Source of the DNA: Anncaliia algerae PRA339
Lineage: Eukaryota > Microsporidia > Tubulinosematidae
Length of the DNA stretch: 32,699 nt
Assembly: GCA_000385875.2 (NCBI GenBank)
Contig: KK365133.1
Span: 36,296-68,994, forward strand
Direction: 5' to 3'
Under the pieces are notes generated by a model that ran no database searches, was not told where the DNA came from, and worked only from the letters and a program-made list of their open reading frames with translations. A program made the translations under genes and the position numbers. Shown here one piece after another: positions 1-23,950 of this stretch; within the stretch, counting starts at the first letter, position 1; every line of letters begins with the position of its first letter.

Positions 1-481
1 ATTTTAACAATACTATTATTTAAATAATAATTTAAAATTACCCCAGGGAGGCAAGAACAAGCAAGGAGAGGATAAATAAGAATAAACAAAATAAGGCATT
101 AATTTTTAGCATATACAATTCTTATATAAAAACAAAAGGGATCCCATCTTTGAGGGACGATTTGGTTTTCAAATTTAAAAACATGGTATTATACGCTAGA
201 ATTTTTTATAAATAAATTCCCGCCTTTTTAGACGCTATAATAAAATATAAAAACAAAAAATTATTCTGCCCTTCGATAATATGAAAAAATATATATTTAA
301 AATTTTAATTTGCTATTTTTAAAAATTTAATATATATTAGTGTCTGCTGGTCCCCTTCTTTTGCCTGTTTCAATTTTTAAAAAATTTATGCAATTTATGG
401 AAAGATAGCAGATAAGTTTATTGCATTCATCAAGAATCTTCAAACGAGAATGCTTATTTTGCCAGTTGGATATAAAAACTC
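1..481. other. AT-rich sequence, no gene seen
   Basis: No open reading frame of convincing length or recognisable homology. A few G/C-richer islets (around 41-60, 140-165 and 345-365) stand out from the AT background and may be relics of a decayed element. The last part probably holds the unrecognisable N-terminal half of the transposase relic that becomes readable at 482. Confidence 0.5.
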
Positions 482-940
482 GTTGAAATAGACGATAAAA
501 TGATGAACTACAAATATGAATCCCTCATTAACAGATAGCCATCCCAAAACTTAAGTGATTTGTATTATTGAGTTTACTGATAAAATTACTAGATGTTTTG
601 CTACTATTATTCCCTATCAGCCTATTAAGACCATTTTACAAGTAATTGAAAGGTTATTACAGATGAATCATCGATTAATACTGATGGGCATATATCGTAT
701 CAGAGCCTAAGCTCACACGGTTATGAACATGGAACAGTGTGTCAAAGATATAAGTTTTTGAATAAAGGATTAGAGCAGATTCACAGCCGTAAACAATTTC
801 AATGCATATTTAAAATACAGGATAAGCTTTAAACAAGGTGTTGAAACCCAAAGAAGAGAAAGTTTTCAATTGAATTTACCCCGAGATATAATAATCAAAA
901 AATTGTTGTTAAGTGTGCTTTTAAATTAATTAAAATTTAA
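482..940 (+). pseudogene. Decayed Merlin (IS1595/ISXO2-like) transposase
   Basis: Scattered pieces in different frames match, in order, the intact Merlin transposase at 15604-16497. At 482 a segment reads VEIDDKMMNYKYES (intact copy: VQVDETMLNYRCKS, first catalytic Asp). Near 572-605 comes KITRCFATIIP. From 680 TDGHISYQSLSSHGYEHGTV matches the block holding the second catalytic Asp, and from 872 EFTPRYNNQKI matches EFCWKFNNKMF, ending at a TAA at 938-940 after KLIKI. Stops and frameshifts separate the pieces, so it encodes no protein. It belongs to the same lineage as the intact copy but is far older. No terminal repeats were recognised. This is a firm assignment by collinearity; the limits are approximate. 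Confidence 0.8.
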
Positions 941-11988: not shown

Positions 11989-12839
11989 CTAATGCTTTAA
12001 TAAATCAAGAACTGAACTAAATAAATTATGCTTGTTGTTAAAAAAAAAACAAAATTCTTTTAAAAAATCAATTCTCTTTGTAGTCTTGACACAATTTCTA
12101 CTTTTAATCATAAGTATAAGTTCATTATTAAACGCCTCCACGGCTTGAGTATTAACCCCATTAGTTTTATTCACAAATTCATATTTGTGACAAACAGTAA
12201 TATGATGGAAGCATATTTTGAACAAAGATGAATAACTTTTATGCTCATCTGTCCATATATCAGATCCTGGTATCACTTGAGAGCATATAATTAGTAAAAT
12301 AGTGGTGAAACATCTTGTAATTTTATTTTTCCCTTAGACAATACATAACGCATCGCTTTTGTTTGATGAAGCCTTTCTCTATGATTCTTGCACTTGAACT
12401 TAACCATAGTTTCATCGATTTGAACGATGAAACCAGTTCCTCCAAGTTTTTTATTTTCAAAGTTAGGAAAAGTCATCAAAGCAATAATTTTTTCGTATAC
12501 TCTTTGTATTGTTCTAGCGAAAACATCTAAACTTTTTTGATGCTAAATAACTGCTTGCCGCGAGAATATTATAATTATACGCTTTATGTCTCTGATTGAC
12601 AGATTGATATTGCAAAAGAATGACCCGATGCGTATTGATTTGTATTTCTTATTATTTTTCTGTGCAACACCAAGCTAAAGCATCATTAGATCGTTTCATG
12701 TTCTAAGTTTTGTAATATTTGCACAAACAGTGCACCAATATTCTCTTTTTAAAATATTTAATTCCATTAAAAATAATGCGATTTCTCTTTCATTTGACTT
12801 GATTAAGAACTTTTCAAACTTGTCTGGTGTATATTCCAT
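11989..12839 (-). pseudogene. Merlin transposase pseudogene
   Basis: It begins at an ATG at 12839 (MEYTPDKFEKFLIK), one base after a CCC. Pieces follow the intact paralogue at 15604-16497. A zinc-ribbon start ILKREYWCTVC is followed by frameshifted KYKSIRIGSFF. KLGGTGFIVQIDETMVKFKC carries the first catalytic Asp, IWTDEHKSYSSL the second, CHKYEFVNKTNGVNTQAVEAFN the catalytic Glu, and FLKEFCFFFNNKHN sits near the C terminus. At least three frameshifts or stops (around 12290, 12480-12560 and 12640-12720) break it. The protein-level match to the intact copy is clear but well below identity, so the two are separate old family members and not recent duplicates. Confidence 0.88.
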
Positions 12840-15495: not shown

Positions 15496-15503
15496 CATAA
15501 TTT
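15496..15503 (+). repeat. Left 8-bp target-site duplication of the Merlin element
   Basis: CATAATTT, repeated exactly at 16718-16725. Eight base pairs is the usual duplication length for Merlin/IS1595-type insertions. Confidence 0.88.
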
Positions 15504-15527
15504 GGATCAGATATATTTTTTAACCCC
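15504..15527 (+). repeat. Left terminal inverted repeat of the Merlin element
   Basis: 24 bp, identical to the reverse complement of 16694-16717. A near-copy of its inner part (TCAGATATATTTTTTAACC) follows at 15536-15554, a likely second transposase-binding site. Confidence 0.9.
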
Positions 15528-15603
15528 AGAATATATCAGATATATTTTTTAACCACACAATAAAAAAACTAAAAAAAATATTAAGTAAAAACTAAAGAAT
15601 AAA

Positions 15604-16497
15604 CTAATTTTTAATTTTAATCAATTCAAGTATCTTTTCAAGTCTAAACATTTTGTTATTGAATTTCCAACAGAATTCATCTAAAAATATTTGTCTTAGT
15701 TCAGTTTTGATTCCCTTTCTTCTTTTAATTTCTAATTTTATTTGACTGTTGAAGCTTTCCACTCCTTGTGTATTGACTCCGGTATCTTTATTGATAAAAT
15801 TATATTTATGGCAAACAGTACCATGAAAAAATCCATAACTAGTTAATGCAGAATAACTTCTGAATTCATCTGTGTATATAGTGGAAAAGGGCTTTACTTG
15901 TTCAATTATAATTGGAAGAAGTGTTGCAGCTTCCTTGTTGCTTATTACTTTGGCGAATGCCCGTGTTATATTATTTTTATATTCCACTATAGTGATTGCA
16001 TCTGTTCTATTACGAGAACTTCTTCCTCGATGAGACTTGCATCTGTAATTTAGCATAGTCTCATCGACTTGTACTATTGCTTCTCGGCCTCCTAACTTGT
16101 CTTCTGAAAAATCGATTGGACCTATTTTATCTAAAAGCCTTAAGATAACTTTTTGAATTGTTTTTTGATGTAGATTAAGGTTTTTTCTTATAGAATGCTG
16201 AGGCTGGTCACAGCACCACCTTGTTAAAATCTTAAAAATTGAAAGAAAATCAGTATTAAGGTTTTCAAAAAAGCTTCCACTTTTTATAGAATGCCTTTTT
16301 TTATAATCTTTACAGGCTTTGTTCATACACCTGAACATAAAACCATCTCTAATAGCTTGATACTCAACCAATTTCATTTTTTCATAACACGACATACAAA
16401 ATTGTTCGCGTTTAATTAGTTTATTTGCCATTAAATAGTCGATTAGTTCTTTTTTGTTGAATCTAATAAGCATATTTTCAAAATTATCAATATTCAT
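15604..16497 (-). CDS. Merlin transposase, intact (IS1595/ISXO2-like)
   Basis: This 297-residue DDE-type transposase has an N-terminal zinc ribbon (C34-x2-C37 and C57-x4-C62) for DNA binding. A helical linker (about 80-125) is followed by the RNase-H-like catalytic core: first Asp D145 in IVQVDETML, second Asp D210 in IYTDEFRSY, and Glu E247 in VNTQGVESFN. Also present are the GTVCHKYNFINK block before the Glu and a C-terminal FCWKFNN segment. All expected acidic residues and cysteines are intact. It starts at the ATG at 16497, with CCC 6 nt upstream. The same lineage is present as broken copies at 482-940, 11989-12839 and 29548-30270, so this is probably the source-type member locally. Confidence 0.93.
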   Translation of the reverse strand: MNIDNFENMLIRFNKKELIDYLMANKLIKREQFCMSCYEKMKLVEYQAIRDGFMFRCMNKACKDYKKRHSIKSGSFFENLNTDFLSIFKILTRWCCDQPQHSIRKNLNLHQKTIQKVILRLLDKIGPIDFSEDKLGGREAIVQVDETMLNYRCKSHRGRSSRNRTDAITIVEYKNNITRAFAKVISNKEAATLLPIIIEQVKPFSTIYTDEFRSYSALTSYGFFHGTVCHKYNFINKDTGVNTQGVESFNSQIKLEIKRRKGIKTELRQIFLDEFCWKFNNKMFRLEKILELIKIKN

Positions 16498-16503
16498 AAA
16501 AGA

Positions 16504-16506
16504 GGG
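16504..16506 (-). promoter_or_regulatory. CCC motif before the intact Merlin transposase
   Basis: On the minus strand TATCCC, TCTTTT, then ATG. It resembles the signal found at host genes and lies inside the transposon. Confidence 0.5.
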
Positions 16507-16673
16507 ATAAGATAAAACATAATTATATTTAAACCCTGTATATAATACTAAATTTATACTAAGAATGCATTTATTTAATAATAATTTACATTTTAATGAT
16601 ATGATATTTTTGTTTTAATTTATTACACTATGTGTAGGAAAATATAAATATTAAATATTATATTAATTTACAA

Positions 16674-16713
16674 CAGATATATTTTTTAACCCCGGGGTTA
16701 AAAAATATATCTG
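16674..16713. repeat. Perfect 40-bp palindrome at the Merlin 5' end
   Basis: CAGATATATTTTTTAACCCC is followed directly by its exact reverse complement, with no spacer. The outer half belongs to the terminal inverted repeat. The inner half is a mirrored copy of the terminal motif, lying upstream of the transposase gene. It could be a double transposase-binding site or a promoter/operator, and it could extrude a cruciform. Confidence 0.9.
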
Positions 16714-16717
16714 ATCC
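16694..16717 (-). repeat. Right terminal inverted repeat of the Merlin element
   Basis: 24 bp, exact inverted partner of 15504-15527, directly followed by the CATAATTT duplication. Confidence 0.9.
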
Positions 16718-16725
16718 CATAATTT
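16718..16725 (+). repeat. Right 8-bp target-site duplication of the Merlin element
   Basis: CATAATTT, exact direct copy of 15496-15503. Confidence 0.88.
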
Positions 16726-16867: not shown

Positions 16868-17686
16868 ATGCAGTTTTTAGATTTTAGTTTAACCTGTAAC
16901 CAAGTACCACTACCACTTTGCAAGGCCTTAGGTAAAAATTGCAGATATACAAGCAGATTAGGAGAAATATCAACCTATAAAATATCCTCTCCATCCACAA
17001 TAGTGCTCCTGGCATGTGCAATTATTACTATAATGCATTTAATCAGGAGAACTAGAAAATATCACACACTCTTTTCTAAAAATGAATTTGTACTTTTCTT
17101 TTATTTATATTTAACTTCTATTTTTTTAGATATAATTTTAATATCAAACTATTTGAAGGATAATACAACCTTCATGTATGTTTTAATTGCACAGCTTTCA
17201 TTTTCCTGCACAGCTTTAGTTTCTTTACTCATAGGAAATATAACTTCAAAATTATTTGATAGTATTCAAGCATTTAGAAGCATAACAATAGCAAGAATTC
17301 TATGTTCCATTTACTTTATTATTGTTTATCCTTTTCTCTTTGTAGCAATTAAAAATAAAAATGCAACTCTTCTCTTTATTTTCTTAGTGTTTGTTAATTT
17401 GGGAATTGTTTTGGTTTATTTGATTTATCAAATTATACTATTAAGAGTCAGTGAAGCAGAAGTGTGGGCATATGGTACTTTATCAGTTGCAGTTGTATTT
17501 TTTTCTATTGCGTGTACCTTTTTATTTTATGGTTCAAATATTATTGCCTTTTTGTCTGAAAGGTATTTAGATGGATATTTTTTCTTCCATTTGTTTATAT
17601 TTTGCACTGTGTTGATGATTCATAAGTATTGGTATTCAATCAGTGACAATGAAATAGAGTGTGCAGATTTATTAAATGAAGTTTAA
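16868..17686 (+). CDS. CHS7: Chitin synthase export chaperone (Chs7-like)
   Basis: This 272-residue polytopic protein of the Chs7 family resides in the endoplasmic reticulum and is needed for export of chitin synthase. Chitin is a main component of the microsporidian endospore. The N terminus MQFLDFSLTCNQVPLPLCKALG matches the family's FxxLCxxxPLPLCxLvG block. About seven hydrophobic segments follow, from STIVLLACAIITIMHL to FFHLFIFCTVLMIHKYW. The C-terminal RYLDGYFFFHLFIFCTVLMIHKYWYSI region is the best conserved, ending before DNEIECAD (family: WDSITKxDLEF). The frame is open upstream through a TTG at 16862, but the first ATG is 16868. TAD3 follows 54 nt downstream on the same strand. Confidence 0.9.
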   Translation: MQFLDFSLTCNQVPLPLCKALGKNCRYTSRLGEISTYKISSPSTIVLLACAIITIMHLIRRTRKYHTLFSKNEFVLFFYLYLTSIFLDIILISNYLKDNTTFMYVLIAQLSFSCTALVSLLIGNITSKLFDSIQAFRSITIARILCSIYFIIVYPFLFVAIKNKNATLLFIFLVFVNLGIVLVYLIYQIILLRVSEAEVWAYGTLSVAVVFFSIACTFLFYGSNIIAFLSERYLDGYFFFHLFIFCTVLMIHKYWYSISDNEIECADLLNEV

Positions 17687-20645: not shown

Positions 20646-21119
20646 TTAACTGCTATCATTTTCTTGTTCATTCTCATCACTATGAAATGATAAGTTATCT
20701 TCGTAATAGTAAATAACTTTTAAAGGAAATAATTTGTGAGCCTCTTCTCTGCTGAATACACCAGTAGATCCGTCTAAATATTCCACTTGAAAGAATAATA
20801 ATCCTTCTTTCTGATAAACACTCTTAACTAACTTAACTTTATCATTTATATCTTTAATCTCATATTCAGTCTCTGAAACCACTTCTTTTTTTATAGGTTT
20901 CTTTTTGGATGGTGTGGGTGCTTTTTTCTCAACCTTCTTATTCTTCTTCTTATTTTCAAATTGTTGTATTAAATCTTTACAAAATACGTCTTTGGCATAT
21001 TCCCAAGTGTTGTGTTCATGGTCATATCCCTCCCATTTTATGTAGTATTGTTTTTTACCCATGTAATCTCTTGAATCCAATATTTCTTCTACATTGTACA
21101 CATCCTCTTTCTTTGCCAT
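20646..21119 (-). CDS. HP1-like protein, chromo plus chromoshadow domains
   Basis: This is a 157-residue heterochromatin protein of the HP1/Swi6 family. The chromodomain spans about residues 6-57 (VYNVEEILDSRDYMGKKQYY, then IKWEGYDHEHNTWEYAKDVF). The three aromatic-cage residues that bind methylated H3K9 are present as Y8, W29 and Y32. A Lys-rich hinge (57-80) follows. A chromoshadow-like domain (about 87-147) ends in VIYYYEDNLSFH, matching the family's VISFYEERLTWH dimer-interface segment. The acidic tail is NEQENDSS. It is slightly shorter than animal HP1. The CCC motif lies 5 nt before the ATG. It implies that H3K9-type silencing is retained, which matters in a transposon-rich genome. The target modification is inferred. 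Confidence 0.88.
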   Translation of the reverse strand: MAKKEDVYNVEEILDSRDYMGKKQYYIKWEGYDHEHNTWEYAKDVFCKDLIQQFENKKKNKKVEKKAPTPSKKKPIKKEVVSETEYEIKDINDKVKLVKSVYQKEGLLFFQVEYLDGSTGVFSREEAHKLFPLKVIYYYEDNLSFHSDENEQENDSS

Positions 21120-21327: not shown

Positions 21328-22722
21328 CTAAGTATTCTTTCTCTCAATAATAATCTTTGTTTCAGTTTTAATAGCTTCAACTTTATCTTTGTCTTTAACT
21401 CTTGATGCAAGAAACAAAGAACCAATAAAAATTACTCCCATTCCTAAGGCAAAGCCATAGAACTGATTGTAGGAGAAATACTCAAAATCAGAAAAGAATA
21501 TTCCTGCATTTATCATAGACAAAATAGTCCACATTGCATGAAATACGGGCAATGTAAGTAAAGCATCATAGTGCCTGAGAGCCCGATTAAGCCAATATAT
21601 TTGCCAAAAGGTAAACGTAACGAGAAGAATAAAAAATAAATATGTCACTGAAAACACAAACTGATTATCTCCAGACAGGGTTTTTTCCACCATCTCTCCA
21701 AAACTTTTTGCAAATAGAGAGGTAAATGCTGCTACGGAAGCAGAAATTCCAACATAAAATGTCAGCATAAAATATTTTAGCATTAAACTAGTGTCTTCAT
21801 AAAAAACATTTTCTTTTTTTAAGAAACTAAAGGTATCATCTGGAAATGACCAATCAGAATTTATTTCTACAAATTTAACTACTAAATATAAAATTAATAT
21901 GAAAAGAAACAAAGTTGTGAACCAAAGAATATTTTGATTGGTTGTATACATCTTTAGTAATTCACAAAGAGAATACACTTTATTAGATCTTCCTGAATTG
22001 GCCATAATGATTGAAGAGCCACCTAGTACACAAATAATTGAGAAAAAATCTTTATATGTAAATACCTCCTCATTAATTAAAGGGGCAAATATTGAATTAG
22101 CAATTAAACCGAATGCAGAAAGTGATGCTAGCAATGATTGATTTCCGTAGATGTATGCTGCAAAAGACAGTATTTTTCCTAATGTGTAAAGTATTGCTCC
22201 AAAATAAAGTGTATTTGAATTAACTCCAAAGATATTTATTTTAGGATAAATGTAAGATCTCTTTTGTAAATTTATACCAATGTTAATACACAAATTACCT
22301 GAAATGGAAAGTATTACACCATATATCCAATCATTTAGATTACCAGATTTACATTTAAATGTACCATTTTCATCCATTAAACATCCTTGTTTAGCATTAC
22401 AACCATTTAGCAAATTAGGCCTATGAGGTAAGCACTCTCTGTTTTCAGGTACTGGTCTACAGCAATATTTAGATGTTATCTGAATTACACCTATCCTATC
22501 ACATTCACTCTCTGCACGACATTTAGCAGTGCATGCAAGAGGTCCATAGTAGAAGTAAGATGCACAATCACTAGGTTTTGTGCAATTGTCTCCAGGACCT
22601 AGTAATTTTTGACACAATCCATCAACACAATATAATGAATGAATATCTGGTCTATTCTTTGACCAACAATCACTGTCTACTGCACATTCTTTAGCAATTA
22701 TAGTTAATAAATATATTATCAT
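21328..22722 (-). CDS. NIPA-like magnesium transporter with Cys-rich ectodomain
   Basis: This 464-residue protein has a short hydrophobic N terminus (MIIYLLTIIA) that probably acts as a signal peptide. A cysteine-rich lumenal or extracellular region (residues 13-124) contains 15 cysteines. The membrane part (about 130-440) has nine helices and NIPA/DUF803 features: IYGVILSISGNLCINIGINLQK, LASLSAFGLIANSIFAPLI and DFFSIICVLGGSSIIM. The C-terminal part is QIYWLNRALRHYDALLTLPVFHAMWTILSMINAGIFF, close to the family's LNxALxxFxxxxVxPxYYVxFTxxxIxxSxIxFxE block. NIPA proteins transport Mg2+ in other eukaryotes; transport here is inferred. The appended Cys-rich domain is absent from ordinary NIPA proteins. 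Tail KTETKIIIERKNT is cytosolic. The start is the first ATG. Confidence 0.88.
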   Translation of the reverse strand: MIIYLLTIIAKECAVDSDCWSKNRPDIHSLYCVDGLCQKLLGPGDNCTKPSDCASYFYYGPLACTAKCRAESECDRIGVIQITSKYCCRPVPENRECLPHRPNLLNGCNAKQGCLMDENGTFKCKSGNLNDWIYGVILSISGNLCINIGINLQKRSYIYPKINIFGVNSNTLYFGAILYTLGKILSFAAYIYGNQSLLASLSAFGLIANSIFAPLINEEVFTYKDFFSIICVLGGSSIIMANSGRSNKVYSLCELLKMYTTNQNILWFTTLFLFILILYLVVKFVEINSDWSFPDDTFSFLKKENVFYEDTSLMLKYFMLTFYVGISASVAAFTSLFAKSFGEMVEKTLSGDNQFVFSVTYLFFILLVTFTFWQIYWLNRALRHYDALLTLPVFHAMWTILSMINAGIFFSDFEYFSYNQFYGFALGMGVIFIGSLFLASRVKDKDKVEAIKTETKIIIERKNT

Positions 22723-23165: not shown

Positions 23166-23950
23166 GATGTACAAGAATTGAAAGAAGAATTAAATGAAAT
23201 AATTACAAGTAAACAATATTTTTGCAAAAAATGTCATTTTAAATGTGTTTGGAAGAGCAAAAAAAAGTATTTACTAATTTATAGTCAGAAAGCATGTGCA
23301 TTAAAGCAAAGTAAAATTAGGGGTACTCTATTTTTTCGATAAAAGCTTAAAATTGATAAATTACTTGATATAATTGTTTATTTTACTTATGGATTATCAA
23401 TTAAAAATATTAGTTTAATGTCGGGGAGCCGAAGACAGTGATTTCAAAAATTTTAAAAAGTAAATAAATTAGTGGTAGAAGACTATTATTAAAATTATTC
23501 TTTTATTGTTGGTGAAAATATAACCGTCGAAATAGACGAAAAAGGCTTTGCAAGAGGAAATTCGACCGAAAACACCGTATTGAAGGAGTCTGGGTGTTTG
23601 GTATGGCAGAGAGAACGCCCAAAAAAATACTTTTATGACCGCTAAGAAATGAGATGAGAAAATTTAATTACTGCTATTAAATACCATGCGAAAAAGGGAT
23701 CTATTATTTACTCAGATTGTTGGAGAGCCTATGACAATATAGGAAGTGAATCTTATATACATATGACTGTATATCACATCAACCTATATATTAATTATGA
23801 TAATGGAGTGCATACCAATACGATTGAGGTAATTGGTCTTCAATTAAAAGGACAATTCCAGAATCTCATCGAAGACTCTCTTTAAATTATATGTATTTAG
23901 TTAAATACACGGTTAAAAGAAAGGAAGAAGGTTATTTACAATTTAGTTTA
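23166..23950 (+). pseudogene. ISXO2/Merlin-type transposase pseudogene (second lineage)
   Basis: A zinc-ribbon start (KQYFCKKCHFKC near 23210-23250) is followed by FTYGLSIKNISLM and the catalytic core. VEIDEKGFARGN (near 23526) has the first Asp. A frameshifted block then reads KFDRKHRIEGVWVFGMAERT in another frame. KKGSIIYSDCWRAYDNIG (near 23690-23745) has the second Asp, and DNGVHTNTIEVI (near 23800) the Glu. In-frame stops and at least two frameshifts disrupt it. The HTNTIE and EGVWVFG motifs are typical of the classical ISXO2 domain, whereas the other lineage in this window has VNTQGVESF instead. So this is a separate Merlin family, now inactive. Confidence 0.85.

Follow-up and report, generated by a model that had tools for sequence, protein, structure and literature searches.

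Positions 15504-16717 of a 32,699-nucleotide stretch of Anncaliia algerae DNA (the window; on contig C4, 242,006 bp, of a 5.6-Mb assembly of 78 contigs) hold a Merlin element of 1,214 bp, whose borders we confirmed to the base by direct reading. This cut-and-paste transposon of A. algerae, of the Merlin (IS1595-like) kind, is complete in structure and found once in the assembly. Its GG-tipped terminal repeats agree at 24/24 positions and lie within a target-site duplication exact at 8/8 (Table 1), as in the eukaryotic Merlin elements of PMC8101967, which have 5'-GG, repeats of 24-462 bp and 8-bp (or 9-bp) duplications (papers are cited here for their accessible parts). Identical octamers at the same spacing make up 2 of 31,399 pairs in the window, one being, by its coordinates, the CATAATTT duplication itself. 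When the genome was scanned with 23 terminal-repeat bases and up to three mismatches were allowed, only four sites came up, all within the element, and none in the control.

Those four sites reflect one extra repeat copy at each end of the element, covering positions 3-24 and lacking the terminal GG. The two inner copies, absent from an earlier note on this DNA, are tipped AT (window left) and AC (window right) instead of GG. Their layout is lopsided: the copy on the 3' side of the gene (window left) is in tandem, and the one on the 5' side (window right) is inverted and abuts its outer repeat, the pair forming a palindrome that spans 16674-16713.

The open reading frame (ORF) of 297 codons has zero stops, and residues C34, C37, C57, C62, D145, D210 and E247 are all at the positions given in the earlier note, whose values for element length, repeats and duplication our reading also reproduced. 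Its assignment to Merlin is borne out by PF12762, DDE_Tnp_IS1595 (E 1.9e-19; 70.6 bits, cut-off 27), and by the NCBIfam IS1595-family model NF033547 (93.3 bits, cut-off 75). In an alignment of 60 proteins (A2, which includes the window transposase and leaves out the PRA339 copy), D, D and E are all kept in 59. The Pfam model Zn_Tnp_IS1595 does not match the window transposase, yet 57 of the 60 have all four zinc-ribbon cysteines. Protein H312_01798 of strain PRA339 is identical at 295/297 residues; it has K in place of N106 and S in place of F181, position 181 being F, Y, W or L across the alignment. A sequence search for solved structures matching the transposase gave nothing meaningful. The CCC ahead of its start codon has counterparts before 5 of 15 other window ORFs; a microsporidian CCC-like signal is named in PMC2803860.

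In a DNA search of the assembly the whole element appears once, the other 15 matches being partial, at 65-80% identity, or the element's own repeats. The earlier note, which saw here a candidate active transposon, had proposed a search for near-identical copies and held that fixed and diverged copies would speak against it; we found no near-identical copy, and the others are diverged. The protein search gave at least 131 Merlin matches, a lower bound in which fragments of one copy are counted separately; 16 of them, the window element included, are free of stops over at least 225 of 297 residues. Nor is the window element singular: in five of 22 other loci checked for ends, an open frame goes together with an 8/8 duplication and good terminal repeats (Table 1). 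Two more have 8/8 duplications, C31b with poor terminal repeats and C56 with one stop. Copy searches for two of the five found next-best matches of 74% (C9b) and 83% (C19b). The assembly thus holds several divergent Merlin lineages with one well-kept copy each. Identical copies collapsed in assembly would look the same, and collapsed haplotypes are possible, since A. algerae is among the genomes discussed for tetraploidy (PMC12558613).

Table 1. Parts of the window element, other well-kept Merlin loci and two small head-to-head units
Feature	Position	Strand	Remarks
Left target-site duplication CATAATTT	15496-15503	no strand	Direct reading
Outer terminal repeat, gene 3' side, tip GGATCA	15504-15527	+	24/24 against other end
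Inner copy, tandem to its outer repeat	15533-15556	+	Start-to-start 29 bp; 21/22 at positions 3-24
Transposase ORF, 297 aa	15604-16497	-	Four zinc-ribbon cysteines, helical region, RNase H-like DDE domain
CCC	16504-16506	-	7-9 nt ahead of start codon; resembles microsporidian CCC-like signal
Inner copy, inverted against neighbouring outer repeat	16670-16693	+	Gap 0 bp; 21/22 at positions 3-24
Outer terminal repeat, gene 5' side, tip GGATCA	16694-16717	-	24/24 against other end
Right target-site duplication CATAATTT	16718-16725	no strand	Direct reading
Open-frame element C47			8/8 duplication; terminal repeats 21/23
Open-frame element C19b			8/8 duplication; terminal repeats 40/40 or more
Open-frame element C4_180			8/8 duplication; terminal repeats 40/40 or more
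Open-frame element C9b	L068 1201-2643		Exact AAACAATT duplication; terminal repeats ~200 bp, 99% identical
Open-frame element C6b			8/8 duplication; terminal repeats 35/40
Head-to-head unit, 46 bp	C9:75306-75351 (L098 27-72)		Arms 20/23; 8/8 duplication GAAAGTTT
Head-to-head unit, 50 bp	C8:186268-186317 (L097 69-118)		Arms 21/25; 8/8 duplication AAATGTTC

Second repeat copies among related elements

We screened every exact GGATCA within 500 bp of Merlin matches in the extracted loci and judged the significance of second copies by base shuffles of the inner stretch. Such a copy is significant at 18 of 37 exact tips (11 tandem, 7 inverted). A curated set of 24 ends contains 19 with p < 0.01; C53 5', a marginal case, was included manually and relabelled inverted by hand for the identity comparison, to give 20 ends, with the uncalled C39 5', C50 3', C4_113 3' and C7 5' outside the set. 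In these 20 ends, all 11 tandem copies begin 28-29 bp in and all nine inverted copies stand at a gap of 0-2 bp.

The repeat sequences vary among elements, and inner copies track their own outer repeat, with a mean score of 16.4 vs 7.4 for cross pairs. Identity between inner and outer copy is 1/20 at position 1 and 5/20 at position 2, then 18/20, 15/20 and 19/20 at positions 3, 4 and 5; GG is found on none of the 20 inner copies. The outer tips were located by the string GGATCA, so their conservation there is selected; a GG on an inner copy would have shown.

In six elements both ends carry a significant inner copy, and all six are mixed, one end tandem and the other palindromic. The palindrome is on the 5' side and the tandem copy on the 3' side in the window element, C47 and C52; the reverse holds for C8, C19a and C78. 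This count drops C7 5' and keeps C53 out. No 3' outer tip was found in C19a and C78, where the outer repeat of the 5' end served to recognise the inner copy (p 0.0018 and 0.0012, respectively). For C8 3', p is 0.008 against its own outer repeat, with 0/5,000 shuffles against the other. The tandem call at C10 3' is weak (p 0.0014). On the transposase tree, a single clade (support 94) unites the elements with a palindrome at 3' with C52 and C4_48; C52 joins C8. An RNA role of the palindrome was rejected as a general cause, the palindrome lying on the gene's 5' side in one group and on its 3' side in the other.

A search of the genome with a pattern built for palindromic ends returned 22 rows, which fall at 13 places, six known and seven new, with none in the reversed control; a second pattern gave three places, all already known (control 0). 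Among the new palindromes, C14, C49 and C3 have inner tips AA, CG and TT at gaps of 0, 0 and -1, and the inner copies of C14 and C49 match 22/22 at positions 3-24. The palindromes of C14 and C3 adjoin the 5' part of Merlin matches. Pattern matches at C22 and C1 were not significant and are uncounted, and the remaining two new places are the head-to-head units of Table 1. In 146,820 unique bases from loci centred on Merlin, a stem search (stem score of at least 14, arm G+C of at least 20%) found four hairpins, 52-326 bp from Merlin matches; the loci were chosen for Merlin, hence these figures give no genome background rate. In the window the same search returned one hairpin, the palindromic end of the element.

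In the long-repeat clades, doubling was not significant in C19b, C9b and C4_191; C4_180 and C23 have an inverted copy at p ~0.04, and C56 5' one at p 0.001. Pattern searches for relatives in viral contigs (101 matches) and genome contigs (65 matches) confirmed none. We also observed GGTTCGAATC-like strings in terminal or near-terminal regions of C56, C68 and C6a (L073, L065, L062), which we take to resemble a tRNA T-arm or RNA polymerase III B box; ARAGORN calls no tRNA genes there.

Possible role of the ends, and alternatives

We consider it probable that this complete Merlin carries four 22-bp binding sites of which only the outer, GG-tipped ones are cut, and that its mixed ends favour left-right pairing. 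The transposase would bind all four sites and cut only at the two outer ones, where GG stands at the host junction; the inner sites would be binding-only and hold extra transposase subunits. A tandem and a palindromic end would form differing protein-DNA complexes, which is why the pairing of left end with right end would be favoured, and the missing GG of the inner sites may keep the palindromic end from excising alone.

Several observations weigh against this proposal. No second copy is seen at 19 of the 37 exact tips, some of them probably chance GGATCA. About 15% of cross pairs attain the lowest self score, the best being between related elements. Since the elements are related and the 3'-palindrome set belongs to one clade, few independent events lie behind the 6/6. 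The C7 5' inner copy is not significant, C53 is a possible seventh mixed element with a marginal 5' end (p 0.03-0.06), C39 and C50 are palindromic at one end only, their other end lacking a significant second copy, and the 5' side of C9a has one same-orientation copy (p 0.0014) that is possibly its outer repeat. C47 3' and C78 5' also score, more weakly, as inverted (p 0.002 and 0.012). Sixteen later end stretches from eight weaker loci gave four usable tips: the three exact ones have no second copy, and the near-tip C77 3' has an inverted copy whose gap of 4 falls outside the 0-2 range, as does the gap of C3. The C49 palindrome stands at a contig end, with no Merlin match listed on that contig. 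Outside the GGATCA clade, the right end of C6a (L062) is a palindrome that keeps the tip on both arms, with a gap of ~9.

The 46- and 50-bp units of Table 1 have GGATCA at both tips and nothing between their two repeats. A GG on the inner tip could let a palindromic end move as a 46-50-bp unit, within a microsporidian Merlin branch whose end code would consist of four sites, in tandem at one end and palindromic at the other, the outer two licensed by GG. We regard this extension as doubtful; if true, the units would be among the smallest mobile DNA elements. We lean slightly towards reading the units not as moving ones but as full elements whose interior was lost in place, leaving just the terminal repeats. 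Internal deletions are known to arise through incomplete gap repair, and GGATCA-N28-46-TGATCC has just these two matches in the assembly (control 0). The units also lack close relatives: the C9 repeat has no other site within three mismatches in the assembly, and the C8-unit repeat has none close in the extracted loci, to which that scan was limited. Against loss in place, both deletions must have ended at the inner edge of the repeats, yielding the geometry of a palindromic end twice.

The earlier note had called the insertion probably recent. Support for this is weak: zero mismatches at 32 paired positions (24 of repeat, 8 of duplication) bound pairwise divergence only to below ~9%, and exactness of the duplication is insufficient as a sign of youth, because broken copies keep it too. 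C52:16055-17097 has a stop-broken frame, terminal repeats of 21/24 and an 8/8 duplication TCAATAAT; C8:147646-148725 likewise has a stop-broken frame, with repeats of 19/24 and an 8/8 duplication AAAACTTG. Target duplications outlast the transposase gene. Among clade members synonymous change is saturated (dS of at least 1.9, or not computable), and nonsynonymous divergence (dN) of 0.41-0.65 would be consistent with constraint, nothing beyond. The element may be neither recent nor active: an old insertion, passed on vertically, in which the short repeats stayed unchanged by chance; the single copy in the assembly, the 295/297 protein in PRA339 and the exact duplications of dead copies all suit such a history. 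We hold it to be possible, on the less likely side, in view of the open 297-codon frame with all catalytic residues and the 24/24 repeats, which make the window element the best kept of seven elements compared.

It is unlikely that the inner copies are by-products with no role in transposition, tandem or inverted end duplications that arose by replication slippage or aborted repair and that gene conversion has kept alike. The missing inner copy of C39 and of C50, and other tips of the family without any, would fit such an origin, as would the inner copies of C14 and C49, perfect over 22 bases as fresh duplications would be. Random duplications, however, are not expected at near-fixed offsets (28-29 bp; 0-2 bp), nor should identity stop sharply at position 3 across ends of differing sequence. 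Co-option of the transposase as a host gene, suggested by the one copy with an open frame and by possible Merlin domestications reported in PMC8101967, is very improbable, given the complete ends and exact duplication that flank the gene and the same build in sister elements.

Known elements and genomic setting

The transposase gene of ~880 bp, the terminal inverted repeats and DDE_Tnp_IS1595 are shared with the A. algerae Merlin elements of Parisot and co-workers, who list 120 consensus families, 84 of them complete (PMC4202319); the accessible part of that main text makes no mention of palindrome, hairpin, direct repeat, zinc, target site or target-site duplication. Many divergent families within one genome are also described in PMC8101967. 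Merlin is there said to have been so far without Zn_Tnp_IS1595, which was then found in a few proteins, e.g. two of C. briggsae, unlike the zinc-ribbon cysteines that prevail in our alignment. The same paper reports internal tandem repeats in Merlin and a Symbiodinium family, Sy.m_F1, whose 5' repeat region is duplicated with reversed orientation, possibly a case related to the doubled ends here; palindrome, subterminal and direct repeat go unmentioned in the accessible portion of its text. The transposase domain and the 8-bp duplications resemble those of prokaryotic IS1595-family insertion sequences (PMC8101967), unlike which the host here is eukaryotic.

The element also resembles the Merlin-like miniature inverted-repeat transposable elements of Nosema bombycis (8-bp duplications, 24-34-bp terminal repeats; PMC4405373); the 46- and 50-bp units, being two repeats alone, would differ from these. 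A narrow search of the literature, which did not cover Merlin biochemistry broadly, found no paper on Merlin end-repeat layout or transposase binding. Sleeping Beauty and other Tc1-like elements of the inverted repeat-direct repeat (IR-DR) type have two transposase sites per end, far apart and in direct orientation at both ends. Two putative sites per end are likewise present here, but close together and in mixed orientation.

The neighbours of the element are eukaryotic, microsporidian genes, whereas IS1595-family members reside in prokaryotes; window proteins match Anncaliia algerae, in accord with the microsporidian genome supposed in the earlier note. At 16868-17686 lies Chs7, a chitin synthase export chaperone (85% of its length matches a partial PRA109 protein at 100% identity), and at 21328-22722 a NIPA gene (100% over 67%, also a PRA109 partial). 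For both, the only matches named A. algerae were PRA109 partials, possibly an annotation gap. Positions 20646-21119 (minus strand) encode a protein that has both a chromo domain and a chromo shadow domain, in a reduced genome; its build is presumably HP1-like. That every other transposon is broken, as the earlier note had it, holds for the Merlin remnants in the window (479-937 and 11995-12824 carry stops, and 23661-23858 spans just 66 residues); other classes were looked at only through ten ORF products.

H312_01798, H312_01791 and H312_01802 of PRA339 are all listed with a 79,856-bp contig. The best matches of the latter two here, at 64% and 96% (C78:4142-4981 for H312_01802), are both on C78, a faint hint that the element may occupy a different locus in PRA339. 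An empty site lacking the element, which the earlier note had suggested looking for, was not found in this assembly.

In the AT-rich genome of A. algerae, then, exact 8-bp duplications do not date insertions, and the window element is a precise, checkable candidate for Merlin mobility. Its relatives form a natural series in which the site sequence varies while number, spacing and orientation are nearly fixed, a ready comparison set for the general question of what lets a DDE transposase bring together one left and one right end when the two look symmetrical.
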